From a bacterium (lineage in GTDB: Bacteria; AUK180), in NCBI GenBank assembly GCA_023144005.1, contig JAGLGN010000013.1, positions 1 through 48,884 of the forward strand: a stretch of DNA of 48,884 nt, read 5' to 3'. A program made the translations under genes and the position numbers. This document shows positions 1 to 29,649 of this stretch, one piece after another. Positions within the stretch are counted from its first letter, which is position 1, and every line of letters starts with the position of its first letter. The notes beneath the pieces are model-generated. The model had not been told where the DNA came from and made no database searches. It saw only the letters and a list, made by a program, of their open reading frames with translations.

Positions 1-29
1 TGAAAAGACGGATCAAAACTCCATTTAAT

Positions 30-73
30 AATCTTTATTCAATTGTCAATTTTACATTGACAATTCAAAGATT
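30..73. repeat. Nested inverted repeat upstream of the TonB receptor promoter
   Basis: Inner arms AATTGTCAAT (41-50) and ATTGACAATT (56-65) are perfectly complementary around a 5-nt loop. Outer arms AATCTTT (30-36) and AAAGATT (67-73) extend the stem after a short internal loop. It is AT-rich and has no T-run, so it is a poor intrinsic terminator. Similar AATTGACA/TTGACAATT words recur near 18092-18112, so it may belong to the window's dispersed repeat population. Confidence 0.6.
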
Positions 74-88
74 ATATTCCCATCGGGA

Positions 89-116
89 TTGACATTTTCA
101 ATAATTACAGTATAAT
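89..116 (+). promoter_or_regulatory. Sigma70-type promoter of the TonB receptor gene
   Basis: A consensus -35 TTGACA (89-94) is followed after 16 bp by a consensus -10 TATAAT (111-116). Transcription would begin near 122-124, at the first strand of the structured leader, which is what a riboswitch-controlled transcript needs. Confidence 0.85.
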
Positions 117-120
117 TTCC

Positions 121-234
121 TTAACCCGAGCCGAACCGCCTAAGTGTTTCATATGGCGGGTGGCCGATAGGGAATAGGAGGAAACTCTTATTCCTCCCGT
201 GTTTGGAAAGGGTTTTATTGATCGTTAACCCTTT
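121..234 (+). promoter_or_regulatory. Structured leader, candidate Moco-family riboswitch
   Basis: P1 pairs AACCC (123-127) with GGGTT (210-214). P2 pairs CCGCC (136-140) with GGCGG (155-159) and carries the two halves of the classical 11-nt GAAA-tetraloop receptor, CCTAAG (139-144) and TATGG (152-156). P3 is a 10-bp stem, 171-180 with 185-194, capped by GAAA (181-184). A GNRA-capped hairpin docking into a tetraloop receptor, with CCGA-AGGGAA and TTCCTCCCGT blocks and a GAGCCG block before P2, fits my recollection of the Moco (molybdenum/tungsten cofactor) riboswitch. Cobalamin is the usual alternative for a TonB receptor, but I find no B12 box. AAAGGGTT (207-214) can instead pair with AACCCTTT (227-234), breaking P1. 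The structure is read directly; the class is an inference and needs a covariance search. Confidence 0.62.
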
Positions 235-248
235 GCCTATAATTATTC

Positions 249-255
249 GGAGGAA
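249..255 (+). promoter_or_regulatory. Ribosome binding site that could be masked by the leader
   Basis: GGAGGAA (249-255) lies just before ATG 258. It is perfectly complementary to TTCCTCC (191-197) in the 3' strand of P3 and its flank. The same GGAGGAA word also occurs at 177-183 in P3. When P3 is folded the anti-Shine-Dalgarno stretch is mostly occupied, so the site would be free. This is a plausible translational switch, inferred from pairing only. Confidence 0.5.
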
Positions 256-257
256 AG

Positions 258-2147
258 ATGAGAAAAGTATTTCTTATTATTGTATCTGTTTTTTGCCTTG
301 CTGCCGGCATAAACAGTGAAACCTATGACCTCGGCACCATACTCATTCACGACACCGCCTGGCACAATGCCGAAGTGATCACCAAGCAGGAGATCAGAGA
401 AAATAATTTCCAAACTGTACAAGAAGCGCTGGAGGCAATACCCGGTATCTATTTTTCGATCGGGTCGAAGGGTGAGACCTCTATTTACATACGGGGGATC
501 GACAAATCCCGAATAAAAGTCCTCATTGACGGTGCGCCGGTGAATGATTCATATTACGGCACCATAGATATGGATCAGTTCCCCATCGATAATATCGCCA
601 AAATAGAGGTCTTCAGGGGACTGAATGCATCTACCTTCGGAGGTAATGCCATGGGGGGTGTCATAAAGATCACAACAGACCGCCCAAAGAATAAATTGAC
701 ATTCCTACTTCAGGGAGACCGCAGCGGAGGAAGCAAGATATACAGCAGTTTCTCTTTGAAAAGGAAGATCTTTTTCCTGTCGGGCAGCTTGACCGATTAC
801 TACAGTCCCGGCTTTATCCTTCCGGCATCATTTCACCCCACCGCCAACGAAGGCGGATTATACAGAGAGAACAGCGCATTTGAGAAGATCAATTATCTCA
901 TTAAGTCCGGATTTGAATTCAATGATAATAATTATATTTGCTTCTCTTATAATGTAATAAGCAATTACAAGGAGCTCCCCGCGCATACCGACGCGGAAAG
1001 GTCCTATACAAAATTCTTCAGAGACCCCCGATATTGGCGTTTTCCCGAGTGGCAGCAGAATACTCTTTCTCTTAATGCGCAAGCGCTCATAAATGACAAA
1101 GTAAAATTCAGAATAAGCGCAAGTTATAATGATATTTACAATGGGCTTGAGATGTCACTGGATCCCGATTTTCAGGATATCGGCGAATATGATGTTTTTG
1201 ATGATACGGTATTCAATCTGAGCACATCCCTGGAAGGCCTGTACTTTCTCAAGTATAAGGTCGGGGTGAATTTTGAACAGCGAACTCATATGAAGGAAGA
1301 GAATGCTTACTTCTATAATGAATATGAGATCAGCGAGATCTCTTCTGAATATTACGATCTTCTTATTGAATTGGAGAAAGCCTTCTCTCTGTTTATTTTA
1401 AATTTCCAATTGAGCGGATCCAGCTTCGCCTGTGACCTATACGATATGAACAGATTCAATTACACATTCATGGCGGAAGCTTCCCCACTGGAACGACTGC
1501 GCGTACAGCTTCGGATGGGGAATAAGATCAACTTCCCCGCGCTTAATCAATTGAACGAGCTTGCAAATGATACACTGGAGCCGGAATTTTCGGACCAGAT
1601 CGACCTAAGCATATCTTATAGTACATCCTTCGTGGAACTCACCGTCGCCTATTTTATTAATAGGGTCGAGGGATTGATAAATCGGGATGGCAAGGGCGAG
1701 CCGTATTATAATATCAATGACTCCACATTCAGCGGGTTTGAAGGATCAGTAGGCGTGAAATTCTGGAAGCTGAAGTTGACATCGAACATCGAATCGGTGA
1801 AAGCGGTGAATGATTCACAGGAAGGGACCCCGGGAGATTATATCTATGAATTGCCGGCGATACCTGCATATAAGGTCTTTAATAAATTATCTTTCGGCAT
1901 TGACCGCCTGATCCTTTCTCTTGAGATAAATACAACGGGACAGGTATATGAATACGATAACGATGATGAGAGGATCACTAATCCCGGATATACACTAGTG
2001 AATCTCAACTCATCGTATAAACTCAGAAATGACTTCCGTGCCTTCCTCAGATTCAACAATCTTCTGGATACCGAGTATTATAATGAAATAGGGTTTGTTC
2101 AAGCGGGTAGAGGATTCATTTTCGGAATGGAGTATACGATCAACTGA
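258..2147 (+). CDS. TonB-dependent outer-membrane receptor
   Basis: A 629-residue outer-membrane transporter that would use TonB/ExbBD energy to import a scarce ligand. A signal peptide covers roughly residues 1-20 (MRKVFLIIVSVFCLAAG). The plug domain follows at about 40-140, with typical features: VQEALEAIPGI, YIRGIDKSRIKVLIDGAPV, IEVFRG and GGVIKITT. The rest is beta-strand-rich and ends with the usual receptor tail (FLRFNNLLDTEYYNEIGF). At 629 residues it resembles the compact BtuB-type receptors more than the ~1000-residue SusC type. I see no obvious TonB box. It stands alone behind a strong promoter and a Moco-like riboswitch, so molybdate, tungstate or a chelate of them is the favoured substrate by inference. 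Cobalamin or a siderophore remains possible. Start is ATG 258 with GGAGG eight bases upstream. Confidence 0.9.
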   Translation: MRKVFLIIVSVFCLAAGINSETYDLGTILIHDTAWHNAEVITKQEIRENNFQTVQEALEAIPGIYFSIGSKGETSIYIRGIDKSRIKVLIDGAPVNDSYYGTIDMDQFPIDNIAKIEVFRGLNASTFGGNAMGGVIKITTDRPKNKLTFLLQGDRSGGSKIYSSFSLKRKIFFLSGSLTDYYSPGFILPASFHPTANEGGLYRENSAFEKINYLIKSGFEFNDNNYICFSYNVISNYKELPAHTDAERSYTKFFRDPRYWRFPEWQQNTLSLNAQALINDKVKFRISASYNDIYNGLEMSLDPDFQDIGEYDVFDDTVFNLSTSLEGLYFLKYKVGVNFEQRTHMKEENAYFYNEYEISEISSEYYDLLIELEKAFSLFILNFQLSGSSFACDLYDMNRFNYTFMAEASPLERLRVQLRMGNKINFPALNQLNELANDTLEPEFSDQIDLSISYSTSFVELTVAYFINRVEGLINRDGKGEPYYNINDSTFSGFEGSVGVKFWKLKLTSNIESVKAVNDSQEGTPGDYIYELPAIPAYKVFNKLSFGIDRLILSLEINTTGQVYEYDNDDERITNPGYTLVNLNSSYKLRNDFRAFLRFNNLLDTEYYNEIGFVQAGRGFIFGMEYTIN

Positions 2148-27594: not shown

Positions 27595-28494
27595 TTAGAG
27601 GATTTCGGAAAGCTCCTTATATAGGTCTTCCCAGAAAGATGCATAAGTACCCGCCATATGGGGAGTTGTAACGATACGGGGATGTGAGAGCATCGGAGAA
27701 TCCGTAGGCTGCGGCTCCATCTGAAAAACATCCAAAGCTGCTGAAGAAAGATGCCCGTCCAATGCTTTCAGCAAGGCAGATTCGTTGAGGATCTCGCCTC
27801 GCGATACATTGATAAATACACCGCCTTTTTTTATTGAAAACAATTCTTTTTCCCCTATGCAGCGGCGCGTGGTAGGGTTCAGCGGTAGAAAGGATATTAC
27901 CGAATCGCTTTTTTTCAGGGCATCGTATATATCGGAGGAATGATAGATCCGGTCAAAGCCGGCGATCGGGCCGGCGCTTCTCTTCGTACCGATAATAATA
28001 GCACCCATTTGCTTCAATATTAAGGCAGCGGTCGAAGCAGCATGGCCCGCTCCGAGAAGGCAGACAGTAGACCCTTTGATGGTTTCGGGCACGATACCGA
28101 TCTTTGTTTCCCACATATCGTTTTCGTCTTGGAATTGTAAAACGCGCTTTTTCAGCAGAAGAAGCAGGGTAATGGCATGTTCCGCAACACTTTGAGCGTT
28201 GATCCCCGGAAAAGAGATGATTTCAATTCCGGGATGAGACTCTCTTTGGAAGCCGTCGGGAAGGCCCGACTGACAGAATATCAACCGCTTGATATTATCT
28301 TTGATCTCGTCTTTTCTGACCTTCCAGCACAAGAGGGTATCGGCAGACCGGATCTTTTCCAAATAGTCCTTCTTGCCTGAAGAAATCATAAATTCATGAT
28401 CAGGAAATGAATATCTTAATTTATCAGTGAACCATTCGGGAGCATTCCAGAGGGGAATCGATGAAAAAAGCGATATCAATACTTTATTGCCCAT
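27595..28494 (-). CDS. D-isomer-specific 2-hydroxyacid dehydrogenase family protein
   Basis: A 299-residue NAD(P)-dependent oxidoreductase. The nucleotide-binding loop is VCLLGAGHAASTAA, somewhat unlike the usual GxGxxG. The catalytic triad is present: arginine in FINVSRGEIL, glutamate in DVFQMEPQP and histidine in TTPHMAGTY. The AEHAITLLLLL segment is typical of the substrate domain. Substrate is unknown. It overlaps mobB by 11 bp at the end of a six-gene operon, an odd neighbour for molybdenum cofactor genes. Confidence 0.88.
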   Translation of the reverse strand: MGNKVLISLFSSIPLWNAPEWFTDKLRYSFPDHEFMISSGKKDYLEKIRSADTLLCWKVRKDEIKDNIKRLIFCQSGLPDGFQRESHPGIEIISFPGINAQSVAEHAITLLLLLKKRVLQFQDENDMWETKIGIVPETIKGSTVCLLGAGHAASTAALILKQMGAIIIGTKRSAGPIAGFDRIYHSSDIYDALKKSDSVISFLPLNPTTRRCIGEKELFSIKKGGVFINVSRGEILNESALLKALDGHLSSAALDVFQMEPQPTDSPMLSHPRIVTTPHMAGTYASFWEDLYKELSEIL

Positions 28495-28984
28495 GCTCCT
28501 GCAATATCCCGCCTATCTCATCGATCTGCTCCTTGGTATGGAATACGGGAATGCCTTTGATCTCGCCTTCAAAGACAGATGAAAGAACTCCCGAAAATAG
28601 TATTACTTTTTTGCCTTCAGCAAGTGCCTCGGCATCTTTGATGTCCTTGGCGCACACGACACATTCTTTCGCCGATTCTTTCATTCCTTCGATGATAAGG
28701 ATTTTCGTATTCAATGATTCAAATATCTTTATGATCGAATCAAAGGAAAGATCGGGCTCAAAGAAAAAAGCTATATCCTGCGAGGTGATCGTACAGACCG
28801 GGGATGCGCCGGCTTTTCTGTGCAAGAAGCTGTTGCCGCCCTCCTTGTCCACCGAATAATCCTCTCGATGTATAGATTTGATCGAGCCGACCGAAAGCTC
28901 CTTTGATCTGAAATAACGGATCAGCCCGGTCACCAATGTGGTCTTGCCGCTTTTGGAATGGCCGATTACATGGATTATCTTCAT
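28484..28984 (-). CDS. mobB: Molybdopterin-guanine dinucleotide biosynthesis adaptor MobB
   Basis: A 166-residue GTP-binding protein assisting MobA in forming the guanine dinucleotide of Moco. The start IIHVIGHSKSGKTTLVTGLIRYF contains the P-loop (GHSKSGKT). SVGSIKSIHREDYSVDKEGGNSFLHRKAGASPVCTITSQDIAFFF matches the conserved core, and LIIEGMKES is the family's acidic block. mobA is not in the window. It overlaps the sulfite-oxidase-fold gene by 4 bp. Its presence shows that the organism makes a dinucleotide form of Moco, which supports the reading of the leader at 121-234. Confidence 0.9.
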   Translation of the reverse strand: MKIIHVIGHSKSGKTTLVTGLIRYFRSKELSVGSIKSIHREDYSVDKEGGNSFLHRKAGASPVCTITSQDIAFFFEPDLSFDSIIKIFESLNTKILIIEGMKESAKECVVCAKDIKDAEALAEGKKVILFSGVLSSVFEGEIKGIPVFHTKEQIDEIGGILQEHGQ

Positions 28985-29649
28985 TTGAACCTTATAACCT
29001 TATTGGTACCCGCGATCCGGGAAACGAATTTCATCCAATTGCCCAATTTCAATGAAAGCCCCATCAAAACCATATTTTCTTTACGTATATAGGCATCTTT
29101 TAAATATTTATCCTTCTCAAGCTGAAGGAAATAATTGTCCTCGGCAATGAATTTTATTATCCTTCCCTCAATTCCATTATCCTTCAGAAGATCCCAGACC
29201 GAAATGCCGGTGATCTGTTTCTTGCCGACAGTATATTCCGACCAATTCAATTCTTCCAGATTCAGGTCAACGCTCTCAGCAGGTTCGGAGAGGTCAATGT
29301 CAAGAACTATGCGCTCTATATCGACCACACGGAATCGGCCGTCAGCATTCCCCGTCATCATAAAGGTCAAAGGAGTGTCTTTCCCGTCAAACTTCCATGA
29401 TATCATCGGTGCACCGTCGGTAGCCGGCAGATCTATGGTCATCTTATAACCGTCCTTGGCATAGACATTTATCGTACCGGGAAGCCCAAGCGTGTTCTTT
29501 TGTAATACTTCCTTAAAAAGAATGCCAGAATAAACACCTTCAACTTCTTTCCCGTGCGCGTCTTTGTAATAGGACTCGATCTCGACAGGATCCAATCCCT
29601 CGGACAATTTTTCAAAGCAAAGTTCTTTATCGGCGCATATTATCTTCAT
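28981..29649 (-). CDS. Tandem sulfite-oxidase-fold (molybdopterin-binding-like) protein without a Moco cysteine
   Basis: A 222-residue protein with two copies of the domain seen in molybdopterin-dependent oxidoreductases of the sulfite-oxidase type. The first reads GVYSGILFKEVLQK, INVYAKDGYKMTIDLP and WKFDGKDTPLTFM, VVDIERIVLDI; the second reads ITGISVWDLLKDNGI and IKFIAEDNYFLQL. The only cysteines are near the N-terminus (residues 5 and 11), so the usual molybdenum-ligating cysteine within the fold appears absent. No signal peptide. It overlaps both M16 peptidase and mobB genes, which keeps a molybdenum role plausible, but catalysis is doubtful. Confidence 0.7.
   Translation of the reverse strand: MKIICADKELCFEKLSEGLDPVEIESYYKDAHGKEVEGVYSGILFKEVLQKNTLGLPGTINVYAKDGYKMTIDLPATDGAPMISWKFDGKDTPLTFMMTGNADGRFRVVDIERIVLDIDLSEPAESVDLNLEELNWSEYTVGKKQITGISVWDLLKDNGIEGRIIKFIAEDNYFLQLEKDKYLKDAYIRKENMVLMGLSLKLGNWMKFVSRIAGTNKVIRFK

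Follow-up and report, generated by a model that had tools for sequence, protein, structure and literature searches.

A P3-less molybdenum/tungsten cofactor riboswitch upstream of a TonB-dependent receptor gene, and its possible role in the uptake of the pterin cofactor

Introduction

The outer-membrane receptor BtuB imports vitamin B12, and B12 auxotrophs place btuB under the control of a cofactor riboswitch. The ECF vitamin transporters of the inner membrane (RibU, ThiT, FolT, PanT) are encoded in operons that combine a substrate-specific S component with EcfA and EcfT.

Riboswitches of the Moco/Tuco family (RF01055) are recognised by their core sequence, the stems P1, P2, P4 and P5, a GAAA tetraloop and its 11-nt receptor, and are located upstream of cofactor-related genes (PMC2408646). 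Stem P3 is absent in 58 of 176 Moco RNAs, 17 of the 19 organisms with P3-less RNAs have genes for the tungsten cofactor, and these RNAs were proposed to be sensors of Tuco (Regulski et al. 2008, PMC2408646).

According to the view prevailing in 2022, cells that need Moco synthesise it de novo, and Caenorhabditis elegans, which acquires dietary Moco, is seemingly unique in doing so (PMC9793310). This case resembles the one proposed here in that ready-made Moco is obtained from others, but it concerns an animal which also makes its own Moco. The genome paper on Pelobacter carbinolicus of 2012 described TonB channels near cobalamin- and ‘molybdopterin’-responsive riboswitches and suggested that these outer-membrane channels transport metals (PMC3543383). 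Ligand-gated outer-membrane channels near molybdopterin riboswitches are the feature that the description there shares with the present locus, while the transport of metals proposed there sets the two apart. Pelobacter makes the Mo cofactor itself. Beyond this remark, nothing on bacterial Moco import or on a Moco riboswitch combined with TonB was found in the open-licence literature.

Riboswitch leader and receptor gene

The DNA analysed (hereafter the window) comprises 48,884 nt of contig JAGLGN010000013.1 from a bacterium of the GTDB lineage AUK180. It begins at the contig end, 5' of a sigma-70 promoter (Table 1), whose position suggests that transcription starts at the 5' strand of P1. Between the contig end and the promoter lies a long AT-rich inverted repeat (30-73), possibly the terminator of a preceding gene beyond the contig.

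An earlier note made from the sequence alone had interpreted the leader as a Moco-type riboswitch. The covariance model search bore this out, since RF01055 matched over its full length (model positions 1-135) with 80.5 bits against a gathering cut-off of 36 (cmscan, E = 5e-18 for the whole window). In the Rfam alignment of the leader stem P3 is deleted. The promoter and P1 were confirmed, both halves of the tetraloop receptor were found at the coordinates noted earlier, and the GAAA-capped stem, described before as one of 10 bp, has 11 bp when the outer G-U is counted. The predicted fold is more stable than that of shuffled sequences (z -2.5). A cobalamin or a different riboswitch, the alternative to be checked, was dismissed, as the Rfam scan of window positions 1-400 returned no match of a cobalamin or other riboswitch model and, apart from RF01055, a single spurious miRNA (19.7 bits, cut-off 97). 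A search of the whole host genome (2.67 Mb, 96% complete) detected this leader as the single RF01055 match. From its sequence the leader is thus well established as a Moco-family riboswitch that is predicted to control the TonB-dependent receptor in response to its ligand, the identity of which (Moco or Tuco) we infer from the family and subtype.

Table 1. Features of the riboswitch leader, its target gene and the mobB-like gene in the window.
Feature	Position	Strand	Remarks
Sigma-70 promoter	89..116	+	TTGACA 89-94, TATAAT 111-116, spacer 16 nt; 12/12 consensus matches
Moco/Tuco riboswitch aptamer (RF01055), P3-less subtype	112..229	+	covariance model, full length
P1, 5' strand	122..127	+	pairs with 210-215; Rfam alignment
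P2 arm	130..164	+	strands 130-140/155-164; Rfam alignment; holds the tetraloop receptor
11-nt tetraloop receptor in P2	CCTAAG 139-144, TATGG 152-156	+	direct sequence reading
P4 hairpin	170..195	+	170-180/185-195, GAAA tetraloop 181-184; 11/11 pairs
P5 with conserved CCCGUGUUUGG segment	196..206	+	196-197/205-206; Rfam alignment
Putative anti-P1 hairpin	207..234	+	207-214/227-234; ligand-free fold
P1, 3' strand	210..215	+	overlaps anti-P1 hairpin; Rfam alignment and folding
Shine-Dalgarno sequence GGAGG	249..253	+	sequestration predicted upon P1 formation
TonB-dependent receptor (629 aa), riboswitch target	258..2147	+	Plug and beta-barrel
mobB-like gene	28484..28984	-	outside the riboswitch operon

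The receptor gene starts 28 nt 3' of the riboswitch end and its product matches the Plug domain (PF07715, 84.8 bits) and the beta-barrel domain (PF00593, 67.8 bits). The receptor is marked by the motif PR[YF]WRFPxW. The RNA belongs to a known family and the receptor to a known superfamily; the combination differs from the Moco/Tuco riboswitches described in 2008 in having an outer-membrane receptor as the target, TonB being unmentioned in the text of 2008 (PMC2408646). The nearest named profiles of the receptor are those of B12 and haem receptors, and among solved structures BtuB comes closest, the resemblance being mainly across the plug. This would suit a receptor for an unrelated nutrient (corrinoid, haem, ferric chelate or thiamin) that is under indirect Moco control, for instance one expressed when a Mo/W-dependent pathway fails. 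However, the profile matches are far below the family cut-offs, with 147.4 bits against 599.7 in the case of the BtuB equivalog TIGR01779.

Predicted switching mechanism

No intrinsic terminator was detected in window positions 1-400, and a switch of the terminator type was rejected on this ground. The expression platform seems to act on the ribosome binding site instead. Pair probabilities of the putative anti-P1 hairpin range from ~0.88 to >0.99 in the ligand-free fold, and the unpaired probability of the GGAGG motif is 0.05-0.75 in the free RNA versus <=0.04 with P1 forced (ViennaRNA). In the proposed mechanism, binding of the cofactor would stabilise P1 (122-127/210-215) and release the segment 227-238, which would then pair with the Shine-Dalgarno region and switch translation off. 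In the ligand-free state 207-214 would pair with 227-234, leaving the ribosome binding site accessible. These folding models point to the repression of receptor translation by the cofactor.

Sequestration of the Shine-Dalgarno sequence was clear only in the host (G000) and in its relative G003, but not in G001, G002 and G004, and was consequently rejected as a conserved feature of the leaders. In a related leader of a WOR-3 metagenome-assembled genome (MAG; L054) the Shine-Dalgarno sequence sits within the 3' strand of P1, a position also described for E. coli moaA.

Conservation of the leader and its target

The phylum of the host was represented by seven genomes, six of which carry one copy each of RF01055. 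In the host's family the riboswitch precedes orthologous TonB-dependent receptors in five species of four genera, the four orthologues sharing 98, 40, 40 and 44% identity with the receptor of the window. Thus, the pairing of this riboswitch with a TonB receptor recurs in the relatives, in agreement with the target named in the earlier note.

The related leaders of the phylum matched RF01055 with 79.3, 77.6, 69.4, 57.5 and 51.0 bits. Among the eight leaders aligned, two of which are from other phyla, P3 is missing throughout, and P4 is fully paired in six with several compensatory pair types (own count), so that the covariation looked for in homologous leaders was detected in P4. The match of the window leader to RF01055 does not appear to be a chance match, because the related leaders score well and P4 covaries. 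With one copy per genome, it might be argued that the leader is a decayed riboswitch without a regulatory role. Given the score of the host leader, its intact core and tetraloop receptor, the covariation in distant leaders, the consensus promoter and the conserved target, this is almost certainly not the case.

ECF transporters and gene neighbourhoods of related receptors

A search for relatives of the receptor, selected by sequence pattern, revealed 13 loci, four of them in the host's own family. At two of the loci outside this family an RF01055 riboswitch was detected. In the WOR-3 MAG (L054) it is followed by EcfA, an S component, a CbiQ-like EcfT, an NTPase and the TonB-dependent receptor, and in a Gemmatimonadetes MAG (L053) by an S component, an EcfT-like protein, which is without Pfam match and was assigned by eye, and the receptor. 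At the Zixibacteria loci (L049/L050), formate dehydrogenase genes lie a short way upstream of a series that encodes, in this order, an S-like protein, MobB, the receptor, MobA and FdhD. Two further WOR-3 loci (L055/L056) were discarded as Mo-linked relatives since they are without Mo context and probably have another cargo.

In the sister family of the host, the P3-less riboswitch of G005 precedes an operon encoding an S component, EcfA, EcfT and MobB. This operon is located at L011 2-2842, in a genome with a fragment of an aldehyde oxidoreductase in which moaA and moaC were not found. Homologues of the G005-type S component, each followed by ECF genes, were found in the host, G003, G001 and G004; none was found in G002. 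The ECF operon of the host adjoins a NuoEF-like operon and not Mo genes, and it lacks a separate riboswitch. For the species of the window, the pairing of the receptor with the ECF transporter is something we infer. Directly upstream of the host ECF operon and adjoining the NuoE/F-like genes, a 1054-aa protein is encoded (G000:C20, L040 8264-11425, minus strand) in which a 2Fe-2S domain is fused to a GltD-like oxidoreductase and to a NuoG-like end.

Both types of S components were assigned by gene order together with fold scores that are weak. None of them matched a Pfam or NCBIfam family above the cut-off. Their AlphaFold models (pLDDT 80 and 78) had ECF S components as the best fold matches in the PDB (4hzu_S, TmRibU, ThiT, FolT, 5edl) with a probability of 1.00, but with weak E-values of ~0.09 and TM scores of 0.50-0.58. 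Homology of the two types to each other was not retained (hhalign probability just 1%). The operon composition is that of ECF vitamin transporters and the predicted fold may be that of their S components. These systems differ from them in that their S components are without a named family and have a link to Moco riboswitches or are under their control.

The neighbourhoods also bear on the idea of an unrelated nutrient. In four lineages the partners of the receptors are Mo/W-cofactor genes or Moco riboswitches, and no cobalamin, TPP or other riboswitch was detected at the ECF loci. A consistent link to B12 or iron genes, which the earlier note had considered as evidence against its interpretation, is not observed. 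Taken with the low profile scores, this makes the import of an unrelated nutrient very improbable. The likeness to the BtuB system, comprising a cofactor riboswitch, a BtuB-like receptor and an inner-membrane importer, is accompanied by differences, namely a Moco riboswitch, the low equivalog score, ECF proteins in place of BtuCDF as partners, and relatives linked to mobA, mobB and fdhD.

Cofactor-dependent enzymes and missing genes of cofactor biosynthesis

The host genome encodes one aldehyde:ferredoxin oxidoreductase, of which both domains were found, and genome profile searches with PF00384 and PF01568 detected no DMSO-reductase-type enzyme. Because the former is present and the latter absent, this predicted enzyme content fits the tungsten reading of the P3-less riboswitch. 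A W-type aldehyde oxidoreductase is also encoded in G003, and formate dehydrogenase genes with NuoE/F-like partners were detected in G001 and G002, together with MobA-like genes and, in G002, an FdhD-like gene (by eye). In the host the genes for a ferredoxin-like protein, the aldehyde:ferredoxin oxidoreductase and a ThiF-like protein lie in a row (G000:C4, L025 5560-9163), and G002, G003 and G005 have a ThiF-like neighbour of a similar kind. It could be a remnant of the sulfuration of molybdopterin.

Profile searches for MoaA, MoaC, MoaE and MoeA_N, which find matches in 11 of 14 control genomes, detected none of them in G000-G003. MoaE, which converts cPMP to molybdopterin, and MoeA_N, the domain of the usual metal insertase, are absent from all seven genomes of the phylum, and MoaA and MoaC were found in G004 only. 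The genomes are mostly MAGs; with a completeness of 91-96% in G000-G003, the probability that all four miss one given gene through incompleteness is ~7e-6 if independence is assumed. Incomplete assembly thus seems an unlikely cause, the more so as MoaA is also lacking in G014, a single chromosome record of 4.06 Mb with a polysulfide-reductase-like enzyme (L077). MoaA, the sole biosynthesis gene searched beyond the phylum, was not found in 12 out of 13 genomes with relatives of the receptor, most of which have molybdoenzymes. Among genomes with Mo/W enzymes, MoaA was present in 11/11 controls versus 1/13 receptor carriers (Fisher p 1e-5), a comparison of MAGs with isolates in which the receptor loci were chosen by pattern and related genomes were counted singly. 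Two PF01568 matches were not accepted as molybdoenzymes, namely that of G013:C51, which is located beside a NuoH-like gene, and that of a 1297-aa protein of G014, which looks spurious, L077 being the convincing alternative.

In the reading that we prefer, to which we assign a probability of roughly 60%, the receptor and the ECF transporter import the ready-made Mo/W pterin cofactor. The outer-membrane receptor and an inner-membrane ECF transporter of the vitamin type would take up Moco, Tuco or metal-bearing molybdopterin, which would serve a single enzyme or a few in bacteria whose pathway for making it has been lost, and plentiful cofactor would repress the receptor via the P3-less Moco/Tuco riboswitch. 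By analogy, the receptor gene, the sole one detected under a Moco riboswitch in a cofactor-dependent cell without the known genes for cofactor synthesis, would correspond to btuB in B12 auxotrophs. Use of the cofactor without the synthesis genes was found in G000-G003, with G004 as the exception. Auxotrophs are not the only carriers of the system, because G004, which has the riboswitch, the receptor and the S component, keeps MoaA, MoaC, MogA-like and MoeA-like proteins; with this partial pathway it may use both import and synthesis. Since free Moco is oxygen-labile, its availability outside the cell is doubtful.

One run of genes in G004 (G004:C7, L031 97-3850) comprises moaC, a MogA-like gene and genes for an ABC transporter of the NitT/TauT-like kind, a candidate oxyanion transporter next to genes of cofactor synthesis. 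The MoeA-like protein (G004:C78, L032 1167-2183, minus strand), encoded beside moaA, has the MoCF domain but lacks the MoeA N-terminal domain.

Of the interpretation in the earlier note, the Moco-family riboswitch with the TonB receptor as its target is upheld. As the cargo, the cofactor is likelier than the molybdate, tungstate or chelate named there, given that MoaA, MoaC, MoaE, MoeA and a ModA/WtpA-type protein were not found in the host. Were tungstate or molybdate, free or chelated, taken up by the receptor and the cofactor made in the cell, the riboswitch would report cofactor sufficiency. Such a scenario would conform to known Moco riboswitches, which often precede molybdate/tungstate transporters (PMC2408646), to the retention of moaA and moaC beside the NitT-like transporter in G004, to the existence of cobalt and nickel ECF transporters and to the SBP_bac_11 proteins of some receptor-carrying genomes (G001, G011, G016, G018). 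Yet the host and its three relatives G001-G003, without MoaA, MoaC, MoaE and MoeA, could not convert an imported metal to the cofactor by a known route. A ModA/WtpA-type binding protein (searched with PF13531) was detected in none of G000, G002-G005, G012-G015, G017 and G019, that is, it is absent in most of the host and relatives, and the S components resemble the vitamin type rather than CbiM. We regard oxyanion uptake as rather unlikely.

The cargo might also be a precursor, cPMP or metal-free molybdopterin, that is completed in the cell. The ThiF-like gene beside the aldehyde oxidoreductase and the fact that MobA and MobB act on later forms would agree with this, and cPMP is a more stable intermediate. 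MoaE and MoeA_N, however, are absent in 7/7 genomes of the phylum, which argues against the import of cPMP or bare metal. A precursor as the cargo is hence improbable, and import of the finished cofactor is the best reading.

The new point is that users of aldehyde:ferredoxin oxidoreductase or formate dehydrogenase without MoaA, MoaC, MoaE and MoeA carry the riboswitch together with a TonB-dependent receptor. Whether a vitamin-like salvage of the Mo/W pterin cofactor by riboswitch, TonB receptor and ECF transporter exists in several phyla, in bacteria unable to make the cofactor, is a broader question, to which an affirmative answer seems slightly favoured. If true, Moco would be a resource held in common by anaerobic communities, its auxotrophy would be an interaction within communities as that for B12 is, and it would be explained why some genomes encode molybdo- or tungsto-enzymes but lack moa genes. 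The proposal also provides a group of TonB receptors that has no name, as well as ECF S components not assigned to a named family, with a function that can be tested.

Further genes in the window

Two other genes of the window had been named in the earlier note as supporting context. The mobB-like gene is well assigned by Pfam (PF03205, 77.7 bits) and is marginally under the NCBIfam cut-off (TIGR00176, 75.8 bits; 0.4 below the required 76.2). The presumed sulfite-oxidase-fold gene was dropped as support, since its 222-aa product reaches 13 bits with the molybdopterin-binding oxidoreductase domain PF00174 (cut-off 24). Its sequence could represent a sulfite-oxidase-like fold without the cofactor. 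This gene (28981-29649, minus strand) overlaps mobB by 4 nt.
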